Positions 1-36,943 of a stretch of 64,000 nt of DNA are shown here, piece by piece. Within the stretch, counting starts at the first letter, position 1. Each line of letters begins with the position of its first letter. The position numbers and the translations under genes are program-made. The stretch is from Thermocrinis sp. (GTDB taxonomy: Bacteria; Aquificota; Aquificia; Aquificales; Aquificaceae). The DNA lies in contig JAPYWH010000004.1 of NCBI GenBank assembly GCA_028276475.1, positions 1-64,000 of the forward strand, given 5' to 3'. The notes under the pieces were generated by a model. The model did no database searches. It was not told the origin of the DNA and saw nothing but the letters and a program-made list of their open reading frames with translations.

Positions 1-294
1 CTTGGCTACGATATAAGGTCAGAGGGCAAAGGAGAAGTCCGATACATAGAGGTTAAGGCAAAAAGCGACGAATCCTACGTGGAGCTAACAATGAACGAAT
101 ACCTAAAGGCAAGGCAACTTAAGGAAAGGTATTGGCTGTATGTTTTGTGCAACGCCCAAACAAACCCAACCCTTTACACAATAAACAACCCAGCAGAAAG
201 GCTTAAAATGGATAAAAGGGTGGTGGATGTTAGGTATATAATGCCACCGGAGGAATGGAAGGAAAAGGGAGAAAGGCATGAAGAGGTTCATTGA
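1..294 (+). CDS. C-terminal end of a DUF3883-containing (helicase-type) protein, 5' end outside window
   Basis: The reading frame is open from base 1, so the gene starts upstream of the window; the listed ATG at 79 is internal. The visible 97 residues contain the pattern GYDIRS...RYIEVKAK...ELTMNEYLKA, followed by a short beta-rich tail, which is the DUF3883 (NO VEIN C-terminal) nuclease-like fold usually found at the end of large SNF2-type helicases. The last 17 bases overlap the start of the DUF1156 methylase, so the two are translationally coupled. With the methylase and the DUF499 ATPase downstream it forms a gene set that recurs in prokaryotic defence islands. The helicase part itself cannot be seen here, so that part of the name is inference from family context. 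Confidence 0.75.
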   Translation, partial: LGYDIRSEGKGEVRYIEVKAKSDESYVELTMNEYLKARQLKERYWLYVLCNAQTNPTLYTINNPAERLKMDKRVVDVRYIMPPEEWKEKGERHEEVH

Positions 295-1798
295 AGAATT
301 GCTTCCAATAAAGGAAATCAGCGAAGAGTCCGCAAGGGAAAAAAACATAAGACACGGGCATATATCCACACTGCATATATGGTGGTCAAGAAAACCCTCA
401 ATAGCCTCAAGGGCAACCACCTACTCCGCTTTGGTGCCTGCGGAAAACATAGAGGAAAAAAAGAAATTTCTTTTGAAGATTGCCAAGTGGGAAAATTCCC
501 TCAACAAAGAACTCATAGAAAAGGCAAGGGAAGAAATAAAAAAGGAAAACGGTGGAAGGGTTTTGAGGGTTTTGGACCCCTTCTCGGGCGGTGGCTCAAT
601 TCCCTTGGAGTGCCTACGGCTTGGTTTAGAAACCCATGCCATTGATTACAACCCGGTGGCGGTCTTGATACTAAAATGCATCCTTGAATATCCCCAAAAG
701 TATGGAAGACCTCAAAAGGTGGTAGAACAAAACGGGTTTTACAAGCAAGAAAAACAGGAGAGCCCTCTTATAAAGGATGTCCAAAGGTGGGGAGAGTGGG
801 TATTGGAATCCGCAAAAAAAGAGATAGGAAGGTTTTATCCAACAGACGAGGATGGCTCCATACCCGTAGGATACCTATGGGCAAGGACTGTCCCTTGCCA
901 AAACCCCCTTTGCGGTGCAGAAATTCCACTAATCCGTCAGTTTTGGCTTGCCAAAAAGGAAAAGAAAAAGATTTCTCTTTATCCTTTTGTGTATAACAAA
1001 AGGGTGGAGTTTGCCATAGTGAAAAAGGAGGGCAACCAGTGGAAAGTTTTGGAGAGCTCGGTGGAAGGCTTTGAGCCAAAAGTCCCAGAAAACTTTGACC
1101 CAGAAAAGGGCACAACCGCAAGGGCAAAGGCAGTCTGCCTTGTGTGTGGAAGCACAGTAGAGGATGACGATGTCCGAAGGCTATTCAGAGAAGGAAAAGC
1201 AAGCCAAAGGATGACCGCAGTAGTTTTGAGCACCCAAAAAGGCGAGGGCAAAAGCTACAGATTGGCAACAGAAAAAGACCTGGAGTTTTACAGATTAGCG
1301 GAAGAGTATTTGGAAGAGAAAAGGAAAAGACTTTGGGAGGAATGGGGAATAGACCCTGTGCCGGATGAACCATTAAGACGAGTCCCTGTAACTTTTGGTG
1401 TAATCAATGTATGGGTTTATGGTATGAACACTTGGGGCGACCTTTTCAACTCCCGCCAAAAGTTAGCTTTAATTACCTTTACCGAAAAAGTCCGGCTTGC
1501 TTATAAAAAGATGTTAGAAGAGGGCTACGATAAAGATTACGCTAAGGCGGTGGTGAGTTATTTGGGGTTGGGGGTAAGTAGAGTAGTAGAATATATGAGC
1601 AATTTGTGCGTTCATGATAACACTCAAGAACGAACTGTTCATGTTTTTAGTAGGCAAGCCTTACCAATGGTTTGGGATTATTCAGAGCTAAATCCATTAA
1701 GTGAAGCTGTTGGGTCTTGGGAAAGTATGGTTTTTAGAAGAATGTTATTATCCCTCTCCCACCTCACCCAAATCCCACCGGTGGAAGCGGAGGAGTGA
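278..1798 (+). CDS. DUF1156 DNA methylase, N-terminal half (gene interrupted)
   Basis: The N-terminus (LPIKEISEESAREK...STLHIWWSRKP) is the DUF1156 signature. Residues around 105-125 hold the SAM-binding motif DPFSGGGSIPLE. Two cysteine pairs, near residues 205 (CQNPLCG) and 285 (CLVCG), suggest a zinc ribbon. The family is an amino-DNA methyltransferase whose catalytic DPPY motif lies further C-terminal. That part is missing: the frame stops soon after the conserved NPLSEAVGSWES stretch, and the catalytic half resumes near 3799 after the coiled-coil array. The start at 278 overlaps the upstream gene by 17 bases. It is either a broken gene or a split enzyme; the sequence alone does not decide. 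Confidence 0.8.
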   Translation: MKRFIEELLPIKEISEESAREKNIRHGHISTLHIWWSRKPSIASRATTYSALVPAENIEEKKKFLLKIAKWENSLNKELIEKAREEIKKENGGRVLRVLDPFSGGGSIPLECLRLGLETHAIDYNPVAVLILKCILEYPQKYGRPQKVVEQNGFYKQEKQESPLIKDVQRWGEWVLESAKKEIGRFYPTDEDGSIPVGYLWARTVPCQNPLCGAEIPLIRQFWLAKKEKKKISLYPFVYNKRVEFAIVKKEGNQWKVLESSVEGFEPKVPENFDPEKGTTARAKAVCLVCGSTVEDDDVRRLFREGKASQRMTAVVLSTQKGEGKSYRLATEKDLEFYRLAEEYLEEKRKRLWEEWGIDPVPDEPLRRVPVTFGVINVWVYGMNTWGDLFNSRQKLALITFTEKVRLAYKKMLEEGYDKDYAKAVVSYLGLGVSRVVEYMSNLCVHDNTQERTVHVFSRQALPMVWDYSELNPLSEAVGSWESMVFRRMLLSLSHLTQIPPVEAEE

Positions 1799-1805
1799 TT
1801 AAATT

Positions 1806-2222
1806 CTACTTTATAAGTCCCAAAACTTTCAACAAAAACTCAAGGGCGTTTTGATTTACAAGTATTACAGCAAAAAGCAAGATGATAAACATTATGGTAA
1901 ATTTGCGGTCAAGTTTGAGGATTTCTTCCTTGAGTTCTAACCTAACCTTTTCAATCTTTGCTTCCAGCCTTTCCTCCATAGCTTGCATTTCTGCCCTAAC
2001 TGCCTGTATTTCTGCCTTTAAGACTTGAATGTCTGCCTTACTTGCCAATTCTTTCGTAAGTTCATCCTTTAGTTCAAGTTTTTTCTGGATGGCGAGCTCT
2101 TCTGCCCTTTTTTCCATAACCTCAAGCCCTAACTCTATTGCCTGTGCTACTTTTCTTGCGGTCTCTTTTCCAAGCTTGTCTTCAAGCAGTTGCAAAAGTT
2201 CAAGGTCTATTGCCCTTGCCAT
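1806..2222 (-). CDS. coiled-coil protein with C-terminal membrane anchor, array copy 1
   Basis: A 138-residue member of a four-gene tandem family that all begin MARAIDLELLQLLEDKLGKE. The N-terminal helix is followed by a long Lys/Glu/Leu-rich coiled coil (about residues 35-110) and a hydrophobic segment near 113-130 (IMFIILLFAVILV), then a short tail ending LLKVLGLIK. The layout resembles the CCDC90/DUF1640 family and the Bdr proteins of Borrelia; that is a similarity in design, not proven homology. Copies are separated by only about 15 bases. It lies antisense inside the interrupted DUF1156 methylase. Function unknown. Confidence 0.75.
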   Translation of the reverse strand: MARAIDLELLQLLEDKLGKETARKVAQAIELGLEVMEKRAEELAIQKKLELKDELTKELASKADIQVLKAEIQAVRAEMQAMEERLEAKIEKVRLELKEEILKLDRKFTIMFIILLFAVILVNQNALEFLLKVLGLIK

Positions 2223-2237
2223 AGTTTTAAAAATATA

Positions 2238-2678
2238 TCACTTTATCAATCCCAAAACCTTCAACAAAAACTCAAGGGCGTCTTTGTTAAAAAGAATGAA
2301 GGTGAAAAGGAGAATGATAAACATTATGGTAAATTTACGGTCAAGCTTTAGGATTTCATTCTCAATCTTTGCAGAAAGCTCTGTCTTAACCTTGTTAATC
2401 TCGCCACTAAGTTCCTTTCTGACTAACTCTATTTTTGTTTCCAACCTTTGTTCCATCGCTTGCATTTCTGCCTTTAATGCCAATAAATCCGCCTTACTTG
2501 CCAATTCCTTCGTAAGTTCATCCTTTAGCTCAAGCTTTTTCTGAAGTGCAAGCTCTTCTGCCCTTTTTTCCATAACCTCAAGCCCTAACTCTATCGCCTG
2601 TGCTACTTTCCTTGCAGTTTCCTTTCCAAGCTTGTCCTCAAGCAGTTGCAAAAGTTCAAGGTCTATCGCCCTTGCCAT
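2238..2678 (-). CDS. coiled-coil protein with C-terminal membrane anchor, array copy 2
   Basis: A 146-residue paralogue of the flanking genes with the same first 20 residues and the same LEFLLKVLGLIK end. Compared with copy 1 it carries a slightly longer central coil (ELSGEINKVKTELSAKIENE) and a membrane segment ending FILFNKD rather than VILVNQN. The anchors of copies 2 and 3 match each other, while copies 1 and 4 share the VNQN version, which points to exchange between copies. The 15-base gap to its neighbours leaves room for little besides a ribosome site, so the array is probably one transcript from the promoter region near 3740. Confidence 0.75.
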   Translation of the reverse strand: MARAIDLELLQLLEDKLGKETARKVAQAIELGLEVMEKRAEELALQKKLELKDELTKELASKADLLALKAEMQAMEQRLETKIELVRKELSGEINKVKTELSAKIENEILKLDRKFTIMFIILLFTFILFNKDALEFLLKVLGLIK

Positions 2679-2693
2679 AGTTTTAAAAATATA

Positions 2694-3110
2694 TCACTTT
2701 ATCAATCCCAAAACCTTCAACAAAAACTCAAGGGCGTCTTTGTTAAAAAGTATGAAAGTGAAAAGGAGAATGATAAACATTATGGTAAATTTGCGGTCAA
2801 TGATGTTAAGTTTGTGTTCAAGTTTTAGTATTTCTTCCTTGAGTTCAGACCTAACCTTTTCAATCTTTGTCTCAAGCTTTGCCTCCATAGCTTGCATTTC
2901 TGCCCTTAATGCCAATAAATCCGCCTTACTTGCCAGCTCCTTTGTAAGCTCATCCTTTAGCTCAAGTTTTTTCTGAATGGCAAGTTCCTCTGCCCTCTTT
3001 TCCAAAACCTCAAGCCCTATTTCTATTGCCTGTACCACTTTCCTCGCTTCTTCCTTTCCAAGCTTGTCCTCAAGCAGTTGCAAAAGTTCAAGGTCTATTG
3101 CCCTTGCCAT
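2694..3110 (-). CDS. coiled-coil protein with C-terminal membrane anchor, array copy 3
   Basis: A 138-residue paralogue. The conserved N-terminal domain is the most divergent of the set (KEEARKVVQAIEIGLEVLEKR instead of KETARKVAQAIELGLEVMEKR). The coil contains an extra LEHKLNIIDRKF stretch just before the membrane segment. The end LLKVLGLIK is unchanged. Both the N-terminal helix and the anchor are conserved while the middle varies in length and sequence, so selection seems to act on the ends. No enzymatic motif is visible. Confidence 0.75.
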   Translation of the reverse strand: MARAIDLELLQLLEDKLGKEEARKVVQAIEIGLEVLEKRAEELAIQKKLELKDELTKELASKADLLALRAEMQAMEAKLETKIEKVRSELKEEILKLEHKLNIIDRKFTIMFIILLFTFILFNKDALEFLLKVLGLIK

Positions 3111-3125
3111 GGTTTTAAAAATATA

Positions 3126-3719
3126 TCACTTTATCAATCCCAAAACCTTCAACAAAAACTCAAGGGCGTTTTGATTTACAAGTATCAAGGTTAAAAAGAG
3201 AACAATGAACCATATGGTAAATTTGCGATCAAGCCTTAGCATTTCGTTCTCAATCTTTGCAGAAAGCTCTGCCTTAAACTTGTCAATCTTCCCATCAAGC
3301 TCTGCCCTCACTTTGTCAATTTTGCTGTCAAGTTCTGCCTTAAACTTGTCAATTTTCCCATCAAGTTCTGTCTTAATCTTGTCAATTTTACTATCAAGCT
3401 CTGACCTTACTTTGTCAATCTCGCCACCAAGTTCCTTTCTGACTAACTCTATTTTTGCCTCCAACCTTTGTTCCATAGCTTGCATTTCTGCCCTAACTGT
3501 CTGTATTTCTGCCTTTAAGACTTGGATGTCCGCCTTACTTGCCAATTCCTTCGTAAGTTCATCTCTAAGTTCAAGCTTTTTCTGGATGGCAAGTTCTTCC
3601 GCCCTTTTTTCCATAACCTCAAGTCCTAACTCTATTGCTTGTGCTACTTTTCTTGCGGTCTCTTTTCCAAGCTTGTCCTCAAGGAGTTGCAAAAGTTCAA
3701 GGTCTATTGCCCTTGCCAT
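3126..3719 (-). CDS. coiled-coil protein with C-terminal membrane anchor, array copy 4 (long form)
   Basis: The longest paralogue, 197 residues. It has the shared N-terminal domain, then about five successive 11-residue units of the type DK(V/F/I)(R/K)(S/T/A)EL(D)(S/G)KI, then the VNQN-type membrane segment and the LLKVLGLIK end. An 11-residue period is the hendecad pattern of a slightly right-handed coiled coil; in DNA it is a 33-base repeat. It is the first gene of the array in transcription order and sits just downstream of the inverted repeat at 3736-3766. The 33-base repeats give an easy route to length variation by slippage or unequal recombination. Confidence 0.78.
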   Translation of the reverse strand: MARAIDLELLQLLEDKLGKETARKVAQAIELGLEVMEKRAEELAIQKKLELRDELTKELASKADIQVLKAEIQTVRAEMQAMEQRLEAKIELVRKELGGEIDKVRSELDSKIDKIKTELDGKIDKFKAELDSKIDKVRAELDGKIDKFKAELSAKIENEMLRLDRKFTIWFIVLFLTLILVNQNALEFLLKVLGLIK

Positions 3720-3735
3720 GTTAATTAAAAATATA

Positions 3736-3766
3736 TTGACAATCGCAAAAATTTGCTATTTGTCAA
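3736..3766 (-). promoter_or_regulatory. imperfect inverted repeat upstream of the coiled-coil array (possible operator/promoter)
   Basis: TTGACAA at one end and TTGTCAA at the other frame a 31-base imperfect palindrome whose inner arms (GCAAA/TTTGC) also match. It lies 17 bases upstream of the first array gene on the minus strand. Read on the minus strand the first arm is a perfect -35 hexamer (TTGACA), and AT-rich candidates for a -10 (CAATAT, TATATT) follow, but the spacing is too long for a clean sigma-70 promoter. It could be a promoter with an operator or a relic of the insertion. Confidence 0.4.
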
Positions 3767-3798
3767 GTCCGACCGGAGGCTATATAATTTTTAGCACT

Positions 3799-5051
3799 GT
3801 GGAGTTGAAGGCAAAAACAAAGAAAATCTTAGTTCCCACTGTGCTTCAATCGTCCGCCACCGAGCTTCCTTATCCCGACAACTACTTTGACGCAATATTC
3901 ACAGACCCGCCATACTACGACAACGTGCCCTACTCTTACCTTTCGGACTTTTTTTATGTTTGGCTAAAGCGTAGCATAGGAGACCTATACCCGGAGCTCT
4001 TTTCCACTCCTTTAACTCCCAAATCAAAGGAAATAGTAGCCTATTCCCACATAGAAGGTGGCTACGAAGCAGGAAAAAAGTTCTTTGAAGACATGCTCAA
4101 AAAAGCCTTTCAAGAAATACACAGGGTTTTAAAACCCAATGGCATTGTGGTAATTGTATATACCCACAAATCTACTACGGGATGGGAAACACTAATAAAC
4201 TCCCTTTTGGATTCCGGTTTGGTTATCACTGCCAGTTGGCCCATAGACACCGAGATGAAATCAAGGCTTAGGGCTCAAGATTCTGCGGCATTGGCGAGCT
4301 CTATATACATAGTGTGCCGAAAGCTTGAAAGGGAAGAGTTGGGATGGTTTGAAGAGGTTAAAAAGGAGGTTATAAAAGAGGTGGAAAGAACTGCGGAGGA
4401 GGTTTGGAAGGCGGAAATTAGAGGGGCGGATTTTTTTGTGTCTTGCATTGGTCCTGCCCTAAAGGTGTTTGGAAGATACAACAAGGTTATGACATACGAA
4501 GGAGAGTTGATAAGGGCGGACAGAATATTGGAGTTGATCAGAGAAACAATAACAGACTATGTGATCAAACAGATATTCCACAATGGCATAGCCCAGGTGC
4601 TAAGTGCCCTTACGAGGTTTTATGTGCTTTGGCGTTGGGCTTATGGCTCTTCCGCGGTTAATTACGACGATGCCAGAAAGTTAGCCCAGGGCTTGGGAAT
4701 AGAACTTGGTAAATCAAGGAACTTTATAAGAATAGAAAAGGACAAGGTCAGGCTTTTGGGACCCACCGACAGGAAGATAGAAGAGATAGAAAGCCTGAGG
4801 GAAAAGGATATGATAGATGTGATCCATTGGGTTCTGCTTTTGTGGAGCAAAAACCAGAGAGAAGAGCTAAAAGAGGTGCTATCTACCACAGGATACGGAG
4901 ATAAGGACTACTTTTATAGAACCTGCCAAGCTATTAGCGAGGTTTTACCGCCGGGAAACGATGAAAAGAGATTGCTTGAGGGGTTTTTGGCAGAGAGTAA
5001 AAGAGTTATGGCAAAATTAAGAATAGAGACCAAACAAAGGGGGTTGTTTGA

Positions 5052-5055
<4 letters not shown>
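3799..5055 (+). CDS. DUF1156 DNA methylase, C-terminal catalytic half (gene interrupted)
   Basis: This part carries the catalytic motif IV TDPPYYDNVPY followed by SDFFYVWLKR, typical of the second half of DUF1156 methylases, and runs to a normal C-terminus (KQRGLFE). The ORF is formally open back to 3205, but everything before about 3770 is antisense to the coiled-coil gene and should not be part of the protein; GTG at 3799 is one possible start and no good ribosome site is visible. Its frame differs from that of the N-terminal half at 278-1798, so simple read-through is impossible. The stop overlaps the DUF499 start (ATGA), so it may still be translated from an upstream transcript. Confidence 0.72.
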
Positions 5056-9532
<4,477 letters not shown>

Positions 9533-9535
9533 GTC

Positions 9536-10564
9536 TTACCTCCTTTCAAGCTCTTGGCTAATGATCTTTGCTATGTTTAAAAAGGCTTTTGCGGACGCAG
9601 ATTCTGGATAGCTTTCTACCACCGGCACTCCCGTGTCTGAGGTCTCCGAGACCTCCGGCTCTATGGGGACAGAACCTAAAACGTTCAGCTCGTAGGCTTG
9701 GGCAAAACCGAGCACCCTTCCCTTTCCAAAAATGTAGTATTTGTTGCCAGTTTCTGGGCATATAAAGTATGCCATGTTTTCTATAACTCCGAGCACTGGA
9801 ACACCCACCTCCTTGAACATAACCACCGCTTTTTTTACGTCCGCAAGGGCTACATCCTGAGGAGTTGTTACCACTATTGCACCGTCCATCTCCACCGTTT
9901 GGGCAAGGGTCAGTTGCACATCGCCCGTGCCCGGTGGCAAGTCCAAAACCAAAAAGTCCAAAGTGCCCCACTTCACATCAAAAAGAAACTGCGTCAGTGC
10001 CTTCATGAGCATGGGACCGCGCCATATTAAGGGTGTATCCTCGGAGGGTAGCAAAAAGCCTATGGACATCACCTTCATTCCGTATTTTTCCGCGGGGATG
10101 ATCCGCTGGAAGGCATCCACCTCTACCTTTTGGTTTTTTACGCCAAGCATGGTTGGCACGCTGGGTCCGTAAATGTCCGCGTCCAAAAGTCCCACCTTGT
10201 AGCCAAGTTTGGTAAAAGCAACCGCCAAATTGACCGCCACGGTAGATTTGCCCACACCACCCTTTCCACTGCCCACCACGATGAGATGCTTTATACCGGG
10301 CAGTCTTCTTCTCTGAAAGGCTGGGCTTTGCTGTGGAGGGGGAGCCATGTCCGCAAACCTGACCCTCACCTCTCCTATACCCTCCACACCCTTTAAGGCT
10401 TGCATAGCTTTTTCCCTTATTTCCGACTCTAAGCTTCTATCCGGTAGCATGAATATAACCTCAAGGACATTTCCCACAAGCCTTATATCCTTCACAAGTT
10501 CAGAGAGCTTTTTGTTAGCCACCGTCTGATTGGCAAGCGTGTCCATTATCTCTTTTACCGCCAT
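9536..10564 (-). CDS. Mrp/ApbC/NBP35 family Fe-S cluster carrier ATPase
   Basis: A 342-residue cytoplasmic P-loop ATPase. An N-terminal DUF59/MIP18-like domain (about 1-85) precedes the deviant Walker A GKGGVGKSTVAVNLA and the switch DLPPGTGD. Such proteins bind and pass on 4Fe-4S clusters as dimers. The usual C-terminal CPxC pair reads CPETG here, so only one of the two cluster cysteines is present; cluster binding may be altered or use other residues. It is the first gene of a two-gene unit with the NifS-like protein. A start 36 bases from the opposite-strand exonuclease promoter region is plausible. Confidence 0.88.
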   Translation of the reverse strand: MAVKEIMDTLANQTVANKKLSELVKDIRLVGNVLEVIFMLPDRSLESEIREKAMQALKGVEGIGEVRVRFADMAPPPQQSPAFQRRRLPGIKHLIVVGSGKGGVGKSTVAVNLAVAFTKLGYKVGLLDADIYGPSVPTMLGVKNQKVEVDAFQRIIPAEKYGMKVMSIGFLLPSEDTPLIWRGPMLMKALTQFLFDVKWGTLDFLVLDLPPGTGDVQLTLAQTVEMDGAIVVTTPQDVALADVKKAVVMFKEVGVPVLGVIENMAYFICPETGNKYYIFGKGRVLGFAQAYELNVLGSVPIEPEVSETSDTGVPVVESYPESASAKAFLNIAKIISQELERR

Positions 10565-10624
10565 TTTTTACCTCCACAATCACAATATAATTTATAATTG
10601 GAAAAGCTGTTATGAGCTTTCTCA

Positions 10625-11257
10625 ATGAACTTAACTAAACTAAGGAGATGGTTCTACAGAAAGCTCTACAAGGAAAGCTTTGATGCTTTTAACTGGGAGA
10701 TAGACCTCAATAAGCCCGTAAAAGAGCATTGCTTTGTTGTCTTTGATACAGAAACCACGGGAACAGACCTCAAGAGGGCTAAGGTCCTCAGCATAGGTGC
10801 CTTCCGCCTGCAAGGGCTAACTTTAAAGTTTTCCGACAACCTAAACCTTAAACTCAAGGTCTCTATGGACAACTTAGAGAGCATAAAGGTGCATGGAATA
10901 ACTCCGGAGGATCTAAGGGAGGGAATTTCTCCTAAGGAAGCCTGCGAGAGGTTCCTTGAGTTTTCCAAGGGTTGCCTTTTGGTGGGCTACTTTGTAGATA
11001 TAGACATCGCGGTTATGAGAAACCTAATAAAAGATGCCTGCAACGGTGCCTTTTATCCTTACCACTTGGATGTGATAGACCTGCTCTCCGAGAAAGACCA
11101 AATACCCACCCTGGAGGAGCTTACCAAGAGGCTAAATTTACCCACATCCAACCTTCATGATGCCCTTGAGGACGCATACATGACTTCCCTTATCTTTATG
11201 AAGCTAATTAAAAGATTTCAAAACCACAGGGTAAAAGAACTGCGGTTAAAAGTTTAA
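10625..11257 (+). CDS. DEDDh 3'-5' exonuclease, DnaQ family
   Basis: A 210-residue protein. Exo I motif is VVFDTETTGTD, exo II lies around VGYFVDIDIAV, and exo III is HDALEDAYMT, giving the DEDDh active site. It resembles the proofreading epsilon subunit of DNA polymerase III or stand-alone DnaQ-like nucleases; I cannot say which from sequence alone. It is transcribed divergently from the Mrp gene and is followed after 23 bases by the polyprenyl synthase gene. Confidence 0.85.
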   Translation: MNLTKLRRWFYRKLYKESFDAFNWEIDLNKPVKEHCFVVFDTETTGTDLKRAKVLSIGAFRLQGLTLKFSDNLNLKLKVSMDNLESIKVHGITPEDLREGISPKEACERFLEFSKGCLLVGYFVDIDIAVMRNLIKDACNGAFYPYHLDVIDLLSEKDQIPTLEELTKRLNLPTSNLHDALEDAYMTSLIFMKLIKRFQNHRVKELRLKV

Positions 11258-26775: not shown

Positions 26776-27848
26776 TCTCTAACCATCTCCAGATAGATGT
26801 CCCCATCAAAGAACTTAAGCTCCCTTCTTTTTAACCTTATGGCATCCTCCACCCTTTTTACCCACAGGTCTCCAAGCCTTACTCCTTCCCCGATAAAAAT
26901 GGGCGCCAAAAAGATGCAGACCCTATCGTAAAGATCCTGTCGGAGGAAGCTGGTAAGCGTGCGGGCTCCACCTTCCACCAAAAGGTGCATAACCTCTTTA
27001 AAGTATAGCCCTCGGAGAACTTCCTGAAGGTTCAAAAGTCCATCCCTGTATTCAACCAAGAGGACCTCTACACCCTCCTCCTGTAGTGCTTTTATCTTGT
27101 CTTTGTCCTCCACCGCTGTTATCACAATGGTTTTAGCCTTTTTGTCCTTTACAAGGTTGCAATCCATCGGTATTCTTAGCCTTGGGTCCAAAACTATCCT
27201 TGTGGGATTTCTTTCCCACTCAAAAGCCCGAACCGTCAGACTTGGGTTGTCCCTAAGGACGGTGTTTATTCCCACCAACACTGCGGATGCCTCAGCCCTC
27301 AGCCTGTGGGCATATTTTCTGCTTTCTTCGGAACTGATCCATTTGCTATGATAATCCTTTGTTGCCAGAGAACCATCAAGGCTTTGGGCAAACTTAAGGG
27401 TTATGTAAGGTCTTCCCTTGGTTATGTATGTGAAAAAATCTTCGTTTAGCCTTTTTGCTTCCTCTTCCAAAACTCCCACTTTGACCTCTATGCCCGCTTC
27501 CTTTAGCCTTTGAACCCCCTTTCCGGAGACCAAAGGGTTTGGGTCCAAGGTGGCAATGACTACCCTCTTTACGCCCGCTTTTATTATGGCATCCACGCAG
27601 GGAGGAGTTCTTCCAAAGTGGGTGCAGGGCTCAAGGGTAACATAAAGGGTAGAGCCCTTGGCAGATTCACCGGCAATAGAAAGCGCCTTCGCCTCCGCGT
27701 GCGGCAGTCCTGCCCTTTCGTGGTTTGCCTGGGCTATAACCTTTCCCTCTTTAACTATTACACAACCTACGGTAGGGTTAGGGTGGGTAAGTCCCTTTCT
27801 CTCCTGAGCCAGCCTTAGGGCTAGCTCCATAAAGTATTGATCATCCAT
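26772..27848 (-). CDS. ribD: bifunctional riboflavin deaminase/reductase
   Basis: A 358-residue enzyme of riboflavin synthesis. The deaminase domain (about 1-145) has the zinc motifs HAEAKAL and [14 protein letters not shown]; the reductase domain follows ([26 protein letters not shown]). The track starts at a TTG, but the ATG at 27848 overlaps the DUF302 stop as TGATG and gives [11 protein letters not shown], the usual RibD start. A piece of this start is duplicated upstream at 28269-28292. Confidence 0.93.
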
Positions 27849-28228
27849 CAAAGGGACTCTTGGATGATCTCCTCCATCAACTTTTCCACTTCCTCCGCCA
27901 CGTCCTTGAGCTGAGGCTCTTGAAACATTTCAAGCATAGCTGTGGGTGCCATGGTGCTAACAACCGTCTTGCCATCCTTTTGGAATATAGCTATTCTGCA
28001 TGGTATGGCGTTGGATATGAAGGCGTTTTTGGAGAGCACTTGACTGGCGTGCCTTGGAGAGCAAACCTCCACGATCACACATTCGTAATCTATAGGCACC
28101 CCTTTGTTTTCGAGAATGTTAGAGACCTCATGCACAGCCATAACACCAAAGCCCTTAGCCTTGGCTTTCTCTTCCAAGGCGGTCCTTACCTCTTGAACAC
28201 TCTTTTGGGTTTCAAAATTCATAAGCAT
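27848..28228 (-). CDS. DUF302 family protein, copy A
   Basis: A 126-residue protein of the DUF302 family: N-terminal helix, VHEVSNILENKGVPIDYECVIVEVC, and the SNAIPCRIAIFQKDGKTVVSTM sheet. DUF302 proteins have a TBP-like fold; one well-placed Cys in CSPRHA and one in IPCR suggest metal or haem/sulfur chemistry, but no function is established. It differs from copy B at only two residues (I/V and Q/E). It is coupled to ribD. Confidence 0.85.
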   Translation of the reverse strand: MLMNFETQKSVQEVRTALEEKAKAKGFGVMAVHEVSNILENKGVPIDYECVIVEVCSPRHASQVLSKNAFISNAIPCRIAIFQKDGKTVVSTMAPTAMLEMFQEPQLKDVAEEVEKLMEEIIQESL

Positions 28229-28232
28229 GGCT

Positions 28233-28292
28233 TCACCTCCTGCTTAAGTCTTCTATTAGTTTATTATACTCCATAAAACGTTGGTCATCCAT
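28233..28292 (-). pseudogene. chimeric 19-codon remnant: ribD start fused to the tail of the LptE-like gene
   Basis: An in-frame mini-[22 protein letters not shown]-stop sits between the two DUF302 copies. The first eight codons correspond to the RibD start, the rest to the final codons of the gene at 28677. It is the scar of the tandem duplication and has no likely function of its own, though it keeps the TGATG stop/start overlap. Confidence 0.7.
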
Positions 28293-28672
28293 CAAAGAGA
28301 CTCTTGGATGATCTCCTCCATCAACTTTTCCACCTCCTCCGCCACGTCCTTGAGCTGAGGCTCTTGAAACATTTCAAGCATAGCTGTGGGTGCCATGGTG
28401 CTAACAACCGTCTTGCCATCCTTTTGGAATATAGCTATTCTGCATGGTATGGCGTTGGATATGAAGGCGTTTTTGGAGAGCACTTCACTGGCGTGCCTTG
28501 GAGAGCAAACCTCCACTACGACGCATTCATAGTCTATAGGCACCCCTTTGTTTTCGAGAATGTTAGAGACCTCATGCACAGCCATAACACCAAAGCCCTT
28601 AGCCTTGGCTTTCTCTTCCAAGGCAGTCCTTACCTCTTGGACACTCTTTTGGGTTTCAAAATTCATAAGCAT
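28292..28672 (-). CDS. DUF302 family protein, copy B
   Basis: A 126-residue near-identical twin of copy A with an identical ribosome site (AGGAGGTGAAGCC before ATG). Two substitutions only, while the flanking fragments have drifted more, so either the duplication is recent or both copies are kept alike by conversion or selection. It lies 4 bases after the LptE-like gene stop. Confidence 0.85.
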   Translation of the reverse strand: MLMNFETQKSVQEVRTALEEKAKAKGFGVMAVHEVSNILENKGVPIDYECVVVEVCSPRHASEVLSKNAFISNAIPCRIAIFQKDGKTVVSTMAPTAMLEMFQEPQLKDVAEEVEKLMEEIIQESL

Positions 28673-33059: not shown

Positions 33060-33998
33060 ATGCTCAAAGAAAAGAGCACCTACTATTCGTTAAAGGACTA
33101 TTTAAAGGAAAAGTATGGCAGGAGGGTTCAGAAGATCACCGTGTCTTTACCCTTTACTTGTCCTAATATAGACGGCACGAAGGCTGTGGGAGGTTGCACC
33201 TACTGTTTTTCTGGCACAAGACCCGCCCACCTCAGCCCCAGCGTGCCACTGAAAAAACAGATAGAGGAGGGCATCCTACGGGCAAAGGAAAGGTATGGCA
33301 AAAACATACTCTTTTTTGTTTATTATCAGTCCTACTCTAACACCTACGGAGAGAGGGATTACCTAAAGAGCATTTACGACACCGCCTTAGAGTTTGACGA
33401 GGTGGTAGGGATTGATGTGGGAACAAGACCGGATTGTGCCCCCGAGTGGGTGTTGGACCTTTTGGAAAGCTACACCCAAAAAGGTTTGGAGGTGTGGGTG
33501 GAGTATGGACTTCAGTCTGCCAACTTTACCACCCTCAGAAGGATCAACAGGGCGCACGGAATCTCGGACTTTGTGGATGCGGTCCTGAGGACTAAAAGGA
33601 GAAACCTAAAAGTTTGTGCCCATGTGATACTGGGACTTCCCGGGGAGGATGAGGAGGATATGTTAGAAACTGGAAAGCTCCTATGCGCCCTATCCATAGA
33701 CGGCGTTAAAATACACCCGCTTCATGTTATAAAGGGAACCAAGATGGCACAGCAGTATTTGAACGGAGAGTTTGAGGTTTTGAGCCTTCAGGAGTATGCA
33801 AAAAGGGTAGTGGACCTAATAGAGATCCTACCTCCCAATGTGGTGATCCACAGGCTAACGGGGGAGGTGGAGGAAGACAGGCTCATAGCACCAGATTACT
33901 GCACCTACAGGAAAAAATCGGAGGTCCTTCAGGCTATCCAAAGGGAAATGGAAAGTAGAGGTAGCTATCAGGGCTGTAAGTCTCCCTTCAACCGATGA
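33060..33998 (+). CDS. radical SAM protein, TIGR01212/YhcC type
   Basis: A 312-residue protein with the cluster motif in the form CPNIDGTKAVGGCTYC, typical of the YhcC group, followed by VYYQSYSNTYG and GLQSANFTTLRRINRAH. It resembles the radical SAM core of Elp3-like enzymes; a role in tRNA or protein modification is guessed for the group but not proven. The stop overlaps the CDF transporter start by 4 bases. Confidence 0.85.
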   Translation: MLKEKSTYYSLKDYLKEKYGRRVQKITVSLPFTCPNIDGTKAVGGCTYCFSGTRPAHLSPSVPLKKQIEEGILRAKERYGKNILFFVYYQSYSNTYGERDYLKSIYDTALEFDEVVGIDVGTRPDCAPEWVLDLLESYTQKGLEVWVEYGLQSANFTTLRRINRAHGISDFVDAVLRTKRRNLKVCAHVILGLPGEDEEDMLETGKLLCALSIDGVKIHPLHVIKGTKMAQQYLNGEFEVLSLQEYAKRVVDLIEILPPNVVIHRLTGEVEEDRLIAPDYCTYRKKSEVLQAIQREMESRGSYQGCKSPFNR

Positions 33999-35152
33999 GC
34001 AAGGAACACTGGGCTTTAATCGCACTTTTGGTTAATCTACTGCAGTCCCTTGCCAAGTTTGTAGGTGGTATTTTATCCGGTAGTTTGTCTCTGATCGGGG
34101 AATCGGTTCATTCCCTCTCGGACTCCTTTGCCTCCGTGATCACATACATCTCCATAAAGTTCTCTAACAAAAAAACCGAGAGATTTCCCTACGGGCTTTA
34201 CAAGCTGGAAAACTTAGCCTCTGTGGTGATTTCTTTCTTTCTACTTTTGGCAAGCTACGAGATAATAAAGAGGGCTTTTTCCCAAAAAGTGGAAATAAAG
34301 GAAGAGTTTTGGGGCATTGGTGCGGGAATTGTGGTCTTTTCTCTCCTTAGCTCCCTTAGCCTTTCTATGCTGGAAAGGTGGGCGGGCAAAAGGTACAACT
34401 CTCCAGCCCTCATAGCGGACTCCTATCACACCCTAACGGATGCCTTTGGCTCCTCTTTGGTGCTTTTGAGCTTTGTAAGTGCTAAGCTTGGGTACCAGTT
34501 GGACAGATACTTTGCGATGGCTGTGAGCCTTTTGATCCTTTGGACTGCCATAAGCATACTCAAAAGGGAGTTTGCGGTGCTTTTGGATGTTTCCGCCGAC
34601 GAAAAAACCTTAGAGAGAATGAGGCAGATCATACTAGACTTTGAAAACATAAAGGAAATAAAACATCTTTATGTTAGGTCCTCTGGAGGAAGGCTCTTTG
34701 CGGATATTACGGTAGCCATAGAGGGTTGGAACTTCCACCACATTCATCAAACGGTGGATGCTTTGGAAGAAAGGCTAAAGAGGGAGATTCCTGGGTTGGA
34801 GATGGTCTTTATCCATTACGAACCGGTGGGAGGGATAAAGCCAAGGGTGGGAATACTTTTGGACGAGGAGCAAAAGGTTTCTTCCCACTTTGAAAACACC
34901 AAATACTTGGCCATATTCTCCGATGGGAAGAGGGAGCTTTTAAAGGAGATCTCTGGCGATGAAAGGGAGATATCTCAAATATTGGCAGAAAGTGGAGTGA
35001 ACATTGTAGTATGCGGGTGGCATCCCGAGGACCAAACCGCCAGGCTTAACATGAGCAGGGCGGGTATATTTGTGTGGGAGACAGAAGAAAAAAACCCATA
35101 CATAGCCCTTTCTCAGATAGCTAAATGTATAAGGGAGTGTAAGGATGGATGA
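33995..35152 (+). CDS. cation diffusion facilitator fused to a NifX/NifB-type (dinitrogenase cofactor-binding) domain
   Basis: A 385-residue protein. The first ~200 residues form the six-helix CDF exporter, with metal-site segments ESVHSLSDSFAS and DSYHTLTDAFGS; then a cytoplasmic ferredoxin-like CDF domain (about 205-285). The last ~100 residues (PRVGILLDEEQKVSSHFENTKYLAIF ... ESGVNIVVCGW) match the RNase-H-like fold of NifX/NifB C-terminal domains that bind metal-sulfur cofactors. CDF proteins export Zn, Fe, Co or Mn by proton antiport; the extra domain may sense metal. It overlaps tsaE by 8 bases and is two genes upstream of the encapsulin. Confidence 0.82.
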   Translation: MSKEHWALIALLVNLLQSLAKFVGGILSGSLSLIGESVHSLSDSFASVITYISIKFSNKKTERFPYGLYKLENLASVVISFFLLLASYEIIKRAFSQKVEIKEEFWGIGAGIVVFSLLSSLSLSMLERWAGKRYNSPALIADSYHTLTDAFGSSLVLLSFVSAKLGYQLDRYFAMAVSLLILWTAISILKREFAVLLDVSADEKTLERMRQIILDFENIKEIKHLYVRSSGGRLFADITVAIEGWNFHHIHQTVDALEERLKREIPGLEMVFIHYEPVGGIKPRVGILLDEEQKVSSHFENTKYLAIFSDGKRELLKEISGDEREISQILAESGVNIVVCGWHPEDQTARLNMSRAGIFVWETEEKNPYIALSQIAKCIRECKDG

Positions 35153-35564
35153 GGTCTTTTTGAAGGACGAACAAGAGACTATAAACTTTGGAAAAGAGTT
35201 TGCCAAAAGGCTAAAGGGGGATGAAGTAATATGCCTACTTGGAGACTTGGGGTCGGGCAAAACTACCTTCGTAAAAGGGCTGGCAGAAGGTTTAGGAATA
35301 AGGGAGGGCTATCAGATTAGAAGTCCCACCTTTACAATCGTCAATGAGTATCCCACCCAAAGGGGAAGGCTAATACACATAGACCTGTACAGGGTGGAGA
35401 ACTTTGATGTGGAGCAGTTTGTGGGGGAAGGCGTAGTGGTGGTGGAGTGGGCAAGGAACTTAGAGCTTTGCGATTGTATCCTTGAGTTTCTGTTTGAAGG
35501 AGATGGAAGAAGGGTAATGTTAAAATTTAACAAAAAGGAGGTGCGCTATGGACTTTCTGGGTAG
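35145..35564 (+). CDS. tsaE: tRNA threonylcarbamoyladenosine biosynthesis ATPase TsaE
   Basis: A 139-residue ATPase needed with TsaB, TsaD and TsaC for t6A37 of tRNA. Walker A is GDLGSGKTTFVKGLA; SPTFTIVNEY and HIDLYRVEN are family hallmarks. The start lies within the end of the CDF gene; the encapsulin ribosome site AAAGGAGGTG is inside the 3' end of tsaE. Confidence 0.93.
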   Translation: MDEVFLKDEQETINFGKEFAKRLKGDEVICLLGDLGSGKTTFVKGLAEGLGIREGYQIRSPTFTIVNEYPTQRGRLIHIDLYRVENFDVEQFVGEGVVVVEWARNLELCDCILEFLFEGDGRRVMLKFNKKEVRYGLSG

Positions 35565-36393
35565 AGACCAATCACCCCTTACGCAGGAAGAGTGGTCCGC
35601 ATTAGAGGAGGCGGTTATAAGGGTGGCAAAGAATACCTTAGTTTGCAGAAGGTTTATGCCCGTGGTTGGTCCTATAGGTGCAGGGCATCAGGTTATATCT
35701 TACGATGTGTTTCTTGGGGTGGAGCCCGGTAGCTGTGAGGTGAGACCCGGAGAGGAAGCCCAAACCTGCGAGCCGGTTAGGGTAGGCAAAAGAATACACA
35801 TAGTTCTTCCCACCATCTATAAACCCTTCTCCATAAGCTGGAGGGACCTTGAACACTGGAGGCAGTTTAACCTGCCCATAGATACATCCACCGCGTCCGC
35901 CGCAGCCTTTGCCACCGCTGTGGCAGAAGACACTCTTATAATACACGGCAACAAAAAGCTGGGTATAGAAGGGCTTCTGACGGTGGAGGGGAGGCAAAGC
36001 ATCTCAATGAGCGACTGGGATGTGATGGGAAATGCCTTTAACGATGTGTCCTTGGGTGTGGTAAAGCTAACCGAAAGCGGATTTTTTGGTCCATACCATC
36101 TTCTTTTGAACCCAAAGGATTACTTCAAGCTAAACCGCGTCTATCACAACACAGGGCTCCTTGAGATAGAGCAGATAAAGAAAATAGTCAGTGAAGTTCA
36201 CACCTCCGCCATAGTGCCAGAGGGAAAGGCTATACTGGTCTCCGCCGGTCCCCAGAACATGGACATAGTGGTAGCCCTTGATGTGTCCCTTGCCTATGTG
36301 GAGACAACCAACATGGTTCATGAATTCAGGGTAATGGAAATTTTGGCACCAAGGATAAAACGTCCGGGTGCTATTTTAGTTATTGGTAAGTGA
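35548..36393 (+). CDS. family 1 encapsulin shell protein
   Basis: A 281-residue HK97-fold shell protein. The N-terminus MDFLGRDQSPLTQEEWSALEEAV, RRFMPVVGPIGAG, the E-loop region and the end VVALDVSLAYVETT ... EFRVMEILAPRIKRPGAI are typical of the CFP29-like family. Encapsulins enclose an enzyme (peroxidase, ferritin-like or other) that carries a short C-terminal targeting peptide. No neighbouring gene encodes such a cargo and I saw no GSL-type tail here. The start overlaps tsaE by 17 bases, so it belongs to the radical SAM-CDF-tsaE run. Confidence 0.92.
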   Translation: MDFLGRDQSPLTQEEWSALEEAVIRVAKNTLVCRRFMPVVGPIGAGHQVISYDVFLGVEPGSCEVRPGEEAQTCEPVRVGKRIHIVLPTIYKPFSISWRDLEHWRQFNLPIDTSTASAAAFATAVAEDTLIIHGNKKLGIEGLLTVEGRQSISMSDWDVMGNAFNDVSLGVVKLTESGFFGPYHLLLNPKDYFKLNRVYHNTGLLEIEQIKKIVSEVHTSAIVPEGKAILVSAGPQNMDIVVALDVSLAYVETTNMVHEFRVMEILAPRIKRPGAILVIGK

Positions 36394-36943
36394 TCGCCTT
36401 CCAGAGGACTTCTGCCAACTCCTCCTCCAAGCCCGCCTCCCTTTCCATTATTCCACCCTCCACTAAAAGGAACGTTCTCTCCAAAGTGCCCACCACCACC
36501 GCTAAAGCCAACTCCCTTCTGACCTTGATAATTCCCTTCTTGAAACCTTCATCCATGAACTTCATCAGGGCGTCTTTAGGGAGGTTTTGAAAGTTCTTTA
36601 CCTCTTCAGCCCTCAGATAGTGGAACAAGTTTATGAACTTAAAAGCTTGCGGATTCTCAAAACAAAAGTTCAAGAATGTTTTTACAAGCTTGAAAAACCT
36701 GTTTTTTATTGATGTCTTCTCTTCAGCCACTGAGATCAGCTCTTCATACAGCCTTTCAGCGTATGTGGAGAAGAGGGTGCTAACGATCTGATCTTTACTA
36801 ACAAAGTGTCTGTATATGGCACCCTCTGTTATACCCACATCTTTAGCAATATCCTTTATGGTGGTCTCCCTTATGCCCTTTTCCGAAAACAGCTTGAGGG
36901 CGGATTCTAAAATTTTTTCTTTGGTGTTTTGATGGCGTGGCAC
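36380..36943 (-). CDS. TetR/AcrR family transcriptional regulator
   Basis: A 187-residue regulator. The N-terminal helix-turn-helix (SEKGIRETTIKDIAKDVGITEGAIYRHF) is clear, the ligand-binding domain is not typed. It faces the encapsulin gene tail to tail with a 14-base overlap, so it might regulate neighbours but no operator was found. It lies just after polX in the same direction. Confidence 0.88.
   Translation of the reverse strand: MPRHQNTKEKILESALKLFSEKGIRETTIKDIAKDVGITEGAIYRHFVSKDQIVSTLFSTYAERLYEELISVAEEKTSIKNRFFKLVKTFLNFCFENPQAFKFINLFHYLRAEEVKNFQNLPKDALMKFMDEGFKKGIIKVRRELALAVVVGTLERTFLLVEGGIMEREAGLEEELAEVLWKAITYQ

Follow-up and report, generated by a model that had tools for sequence, protein, structure and literature searches.

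Two-bundle ferritin-like proteins are known as cargo of encapsulins. The Bfr cargo class of Family 1, which has been reported from certain Firmicutes, Aquificae, Chloroflexi and Cyanobacteria, comprises proteins with two four-helix bundles and targeting peptides (PMC8346489), and Andreas and Giessen (2021) counted a few Aquificae among the bacteria with such two-bundle cargos (PMC8346489). A review that treats them as 'Bfr-like FLP' describes a complete centre in bundle 1 and a variable bundle 2, and proposes a model in which the two bundles correspond to a dimer of bacterioferritin and the protein could assemble into a 12-mer cage within a shell of T=1 or T=3 (PMC11202242). The published consensus of the targeting peptide is L(F)X1V(I)X2X3L(I) (PMC11202242), and the peptide of Myxococcus xanthus reads PLTVGSLRRGG (PMC7925596).

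In this study, we analysed a window of 64,000 nucleotides (G000:C22:1-64000), by which we mean the whole stretch of DNA considered here, from the draft assembly of a Thermocrinis-like bacterium in the family Aquificaceae (1.298 Mb in 68 contigs, 97% complete). The forward-strand gene at 35548-36393 encodes an EncA-like Family 1 encapsulin shell of 281 aa (PF04454, 6.4e-69), which scores 262.9 bits against the curated family model NF041155 (encap_f1; cut-off 100) and belongs with the HK97-type shells. Its closest solved structures in the PDB are those of M. xanthus EncA (1.8e-68), its nearest named relatives are from Thermocrinis MAGs at 97-98% identity, and it is the only encapsulin shell copy in the genome. 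We consider it very probable that this gene provides the shell of an iron-storage compartment whose cargo is an unlinked tandem Bfr-like protein, encoded at G000:C48:5755-6639.

The shell gene is the last in a run of four overlapping forward-strand genes at 33060-36393. The run begins with a radical SAM protein of the MnmL/YtqA family (33060-33998; TIGR01212, 414.6 bits against a cut-off of 180), whose connection to the compartment is not evident, and continues with a CDF cation-efflux transporter (33995-35152) and with TsaE, the ATPase of the tRNA t6A system (35145-35564; PF02367, 1.7e-32; TIGR00150 above its cut-off). By its profile matches, the CDF domain assignment is certain (PF01545, 1.9e-39; PF16916, 7e-15), and a C-terminal NifX-like (Nitro_FeMo-Co) domain is probable at residues 292-364, where PF02579 scores 24.9 bits (2.5e-5), just under the Pfam cut-off of 26.3. 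The overlaps amount to 4 nt between the radical SAM stop (33998) and the CDF start (33995), 8 nt between the CDF stop (35152) and the TsaE start (35145), and 17 nt between the TsaE stop (35564) and the shell start (35548). On the opposite strand, a gene for a TetR-family regulator (36380-36943; PF00440, 6.4e-17) is convergent with the shell gene, their ends overlapping by 14 nt. The preliminary description of this locus, in which the shell gene was coupled to tsaE and the CDF-NifX gene with no cargo beside it, is borne out: the genes overlap, no credible cargo was found among the window genes examined, no scanned neighbour falls in a known cargo class, and the targeting-motif tails listed for the window belong to short ORFs only, which we read as spurious.

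Elsewhere in the window, a DUF1156-type DNA methyltransferase gene is apparently split (278-5055). Its N-terminal part lies at 278-1798 (PF06634, 4.7e-21) and its later part within the ORF at 3205-5055, and between them stand four paralogous coiled-coil genes on the opposite strand (1806-3719), whose products have almost the same N-terminus; next comes a DUF499 gene (5052-7628). Two tandem DUF302 genes (27848-28228 and 28292-28672) encode proteins that are 98% identical (124/126), and the pair is, judging by this identity, a very recent duplication or a case of ongoing gene conversion.

The surroundings of the shell gene differ among relatives. The CDF and TsaE genes adjoin it in five of the seven genomes of the genus, and relatives of the window CDF were not found beside the shell at the loci read from other genera of Aquificaceae. 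Therefore, the metal exporter gives no clue to the cargo. The TsaE-shell overlap is best interpreted as recent in origin or incidental; it may set expression and says nothing on the contents. In other genera, the neighbours vary by lineage, except for eight cases in which the ferritin gene is adjacent. The TetR gene accompanies the shell gene in more lineages than CDF and TsaE do, and is a candidate regulator; it also adjoins the shell in G001, G002, G033 and G034, four genomes in which neither CDF nor TsaE was found next to the shell. A coupling unlike that in Thermocrinis was observed in three relatives (L005, L006 and L007, at 8846-10700), in which a long uncharacterised gene (~612-615 aa) starts within the end of the shell gene, with an overlap of 4 nt, and its product begins with MKEKWKVIE or similar. 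In one genome of the sister family (G068), a distant CDF gene (L187:2027-2929; 27% identity to the window CDF) converges on an adjacent shell-ferritin pair; in the other genomes with an adjacent pair, no such CDF was found next to it.

The scan for C-terminal targeting peptides proposed in the preliminary description was run over ~75% of the genome (1,383 ORFs of at least 100 aa, motif in the last 30 residues), and the tandem ferritin was found by it. Five ORFs carried the motif. One was the ferritin, the sole member of a known cargo class in the scanned part; another was long and terminated in LSVGYIY, and the remaining three measured 106-120 aa. Since ~2.5 such tails are expected by chance against the five observed, the tail in this single genome proves little, and the weight lies on its conservation. 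A narrow peptide pattern, searched over the whole genome, gave 62 matches including the ferritin site; ten of them lay outside the broadly scanned stretches, and the pattern fell near the C-terminus in just two of these, within ORFs that are 53 and 70 aa long. The GSL motif was discarded as a sole search term, its many matches falling in short or wrong-strand ORFs. Three other candidate cargos were rejected as well: the genome has no DyP peroxidase, and its rubrerythrin (C6:5701-6132) and hemerythrin (C57) are without a targeting peptide.

The tandem ferritin-like protein has 294 residues and is encoded on the forward strand of another contig than that of the shell (G000:C48:5755-6639, equal to L061:5755-6639); the ORF spans G000:C48:5746-6639, and 5755 is its second possible start. 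PF00210 matches the protein in two stretches covering both halves (8.4e-20), and a profile comparison pairs one half with the other across 128 columns (E 2.9e-17), giving the two consecutive ferritin-like four-helix bundles that characterise Bfr-like FLP cargos. The ferroxidase centre of bundle 1 is complete, with all six bacterioferritin di-iron ligands (E17, E47, H50, E92, E122 and H125) conserved in nearly all orthologues, and bundle 2 is variable, again as in that cargo group. S195 stands in the place of E47 in bundle 2, and every orthologue has S, K, Q or N there, so that one bridging glutamate is lost and the second site is probably inactive or modified. A methionine occupies the haem-ligand position (Met52 of Bfr) in both bundles, as M48 in 72 of 73 orthologues and as M196 in 73 of 73, and both residues align to the EM..H of solved Bfrs; this suggests that a haem between the two bundles is possible. 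The protein reached neither the bacterioferritin equivalog cut-off of TIGR00754 (35.2 bits vs 125.55) nor that of NF058679 EncB_fam (43.9 bits vs 90). Its C-terminus, RRLTVGDLRRKE, is an EncA-type targeting peptide (LTVGDL), whose motif agrees with the published consensus (PMC11202242).

The distribution of the two genes was evaluated in 136 Aquificia genomes, with ferritin presence called at E below 1e-30. Both the shell and the tandem ferritin were present in 71 genomes, the shell alone in three, the ferritin alone in three, and neither in 59. Because related genomes are not independent, ferritin presence was permuted within genera, which gave a mean of 66.1 joint occurrences against the 71 observed (p = 0.00017). 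Genomes with both genes stand alongside genomes without either in genera g2, g3, g5, g12 and g20, some of them incomplete drafts. All three genomes with the shell alone are drafts (65-87% complete), and two drafts (G047 and G100, 94% and 89% complete) encode a peptide-bearing ferritin, with no shell found.

The peptide itself is strongly retained. The pattern [LF][TS][VI]Gx[LI] occurs in the last 25 residues of 70 of the 73 orthologues with an intact C-terminus and in none of 13 single-domain homologues, none of whose genomes yielded a shell. Within the tail, G288 is conserved at 99% and L290 at 96%, while residues 272-284 are mostly at 23-51%; the sister-family orthologues differ in the linker and still end ALTVGSLF or AFTVGSLF. 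Two exceptions end FSVGKP and LTVGRP, and their genomes contain shells. The third exception (L194:1483-2397) comes from a genome in which no shell was found, G073, and has ALTVGSLF in another reading frame, which could reflect a sequencing error or gene decay following the loss of the shell.

Concerning gene order, the shell and ferritin genes are non-adjacent in 63 of the 71 genomes with both: they lie on different contigs in 48 genomes, many of which are fragmented drafts, and on one contig, 41 kb to 1.36 Mb apart, in 15. The ferritin gene is directly downstream of the shell gene in the remaining eight, from three other genera (g5, g12 and g15), and every single-contig genome with both genes outside g5 has them unlinked. 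The single-contig genomes and the adjacent pairs together indicate that the two genes are neighbours in some lineages but not in most Aquificaceae. A cargo gene within the shell operon, which is usual and not strictly required for Family 1, was not found here. The persistence of shell and cargo together without linkage is apparently new.

A novel type of cargo, or one connected with the neighbouring CDF-NifX exporter and TsaE, seems highly improbable to us. CDF proteins move divalent metals, and the overlapping CDF, TsaE and shell genes are probably co-transcribed, which would favour a role of the exporter; however, CDF and TsaE adjoin the shell in five of the seven genomes of the genus and were not found at the shell loci read from other genera of the family, the exporter is a membrane protein without a targeting peptide, and the genome already encodes a peptide-tagged member of a known cargo class. 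It is also very unlikely that the tandem ferritin makes a bacterioferritin-like cage free in the cytoplasm, with a coincidental or unrelated tail motif, although bacterioferritins build cages on their own, a relative of 306 residues was deposited alone as 'Bacterioferritin' (PDB 9VIW), and the two genes are unlinked here. A free cage would not readily account for a tail that is better conserved (G288 and L290) than the residues just before it (272-284), for a peptide that persists in otherwise different orthologue tails and is absent in single-domain homologues, for the adjacency to the shell gene in eight genomes, or for the joint absence of both genes within genera. There is a small but real chance that the shell holds another protein in addition to the tandem ferritin: M. 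xanthus EncA, with several ferritin-like cargos and a flavin reductase, is a precedent (PMC11202242), and about a quarter of the genome was covered by the narrow peptide pattern alone. Yet no further credible peptide-bearing candidate was found, rubrerythrin and hemerythrin being without the peptide.

The assignment of the unlinked tandem ferritin as cargo revises the earlier picture in several respects. The view that the cargo must be encoded elsewhere or be of a new kind holds in its first half, given a peptide-tagged ferritin on another contig that co-occurs with the shell; the second half falls, since Bfr-like cargos with two bundles had been described before (PMC8346489, PMC11202242) and the kind of cargo is therefore known. 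The guess of iron handling, drawn from the transporter, stands by way of the ferritin, while the CDF-NifX gene, found at the shell in five of seven genus genomes and not at the loci read from other genera of the family, loses its place as the basis. The puzzle of a shell with no visible cargo disappears with the finding that the preliminary description had named as its refutation, a known cargo gene elsewhere in the genome that has a matching peptide and conserved co-occurrence.

In the proposed compartment, the LTVGDL peptide of the ferritin would bind to the inner surface of the shell, and Fe(II) would enter via the shell pores, be oxidised at the di-iron centre of bundle 1, and be mineralised either within the shell or in a ferritin cage inside it. 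Bundle 2 would probably be structural, and a haem held between the bundles by M48/M196 could pass electrons for iron release. We also put forward, as a tentative and rather doubtful extension, a dispersed cage-in-a-cage in nearly all encapsulin-bearing Aquificaceae, in which a haem-bridged 12-mer cage of tandem Bfr would sit inside a much larger shell, the M48/M196 haem would drive iron release, and selection would keep the unlinked shell and cargo together.

What is apparently new, from the comparison of these sequences, is that the same cargo serves Aquificaceae shells without adjacent cargo, linkage being generally lacking, and that the haem-ligand Met position is conserved in both bundles. 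No paper on an Aquificaceae encapsulin, or on an unlinked shell and cargo that are retained together, was found in the open-access literature searched, which leaves out most subscription journals. Assigning the cargo by looking beside the shell gene fails for most Aquificaceae, and a genome-wide peptide search combined with a co-occurrence test assigned one cargo to 71 shells together. This recipe could be extended to other shells with no cargo assigned, of which 90 Family 1 systems are on record (PMC8346489). Additionally, the two genes offer a heat-stable system for testing whether a ferritin cage sits inside an encapsulin cage.

Compared with the known systems, the protein reported here shares with the Bfr cargo class the two bundles, the C-terminal peptide, and the complete ferroxidase centre in bundle 1; that class was described in Family 1 operons, whereas the cargo gene here is not beside the shell gene. 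The M. xanthus system EncA/EncB/EncC/EncD (T=3) has the closest solved shell sequences and an LTVGSL-type peptide like the one here, and its locus tags EncB (MXAN_3557) and EncC (MXAN_4464) show that cargo genes can be far apart there too. In contrast to the two-bundle Bfr-like cargo here, EncB and EncC are small half-ferritin decamers. A full-length homologue of the cargo is available as PDB 9VIW chain A (3.5e-129), whose tail ...RFTIGGLRE is of the same type; literature searches found no paper on it, and it was deposited alone, unlike the pairing of shell and ferritin proposed here. In M. tuberculosis, the ferritin BfrB was proposed as a cargo and is encoded outside the shell operon, as is the case here (cited in PMC8346489 and PMC11202242), although BfrB is a single-bundle protein forming a 24-mer and the present cargo is tandem. 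With M. xanthus EncC and M. tuberculosis BfrB, therefore, a cargo that is not linked to its shell has precedents.
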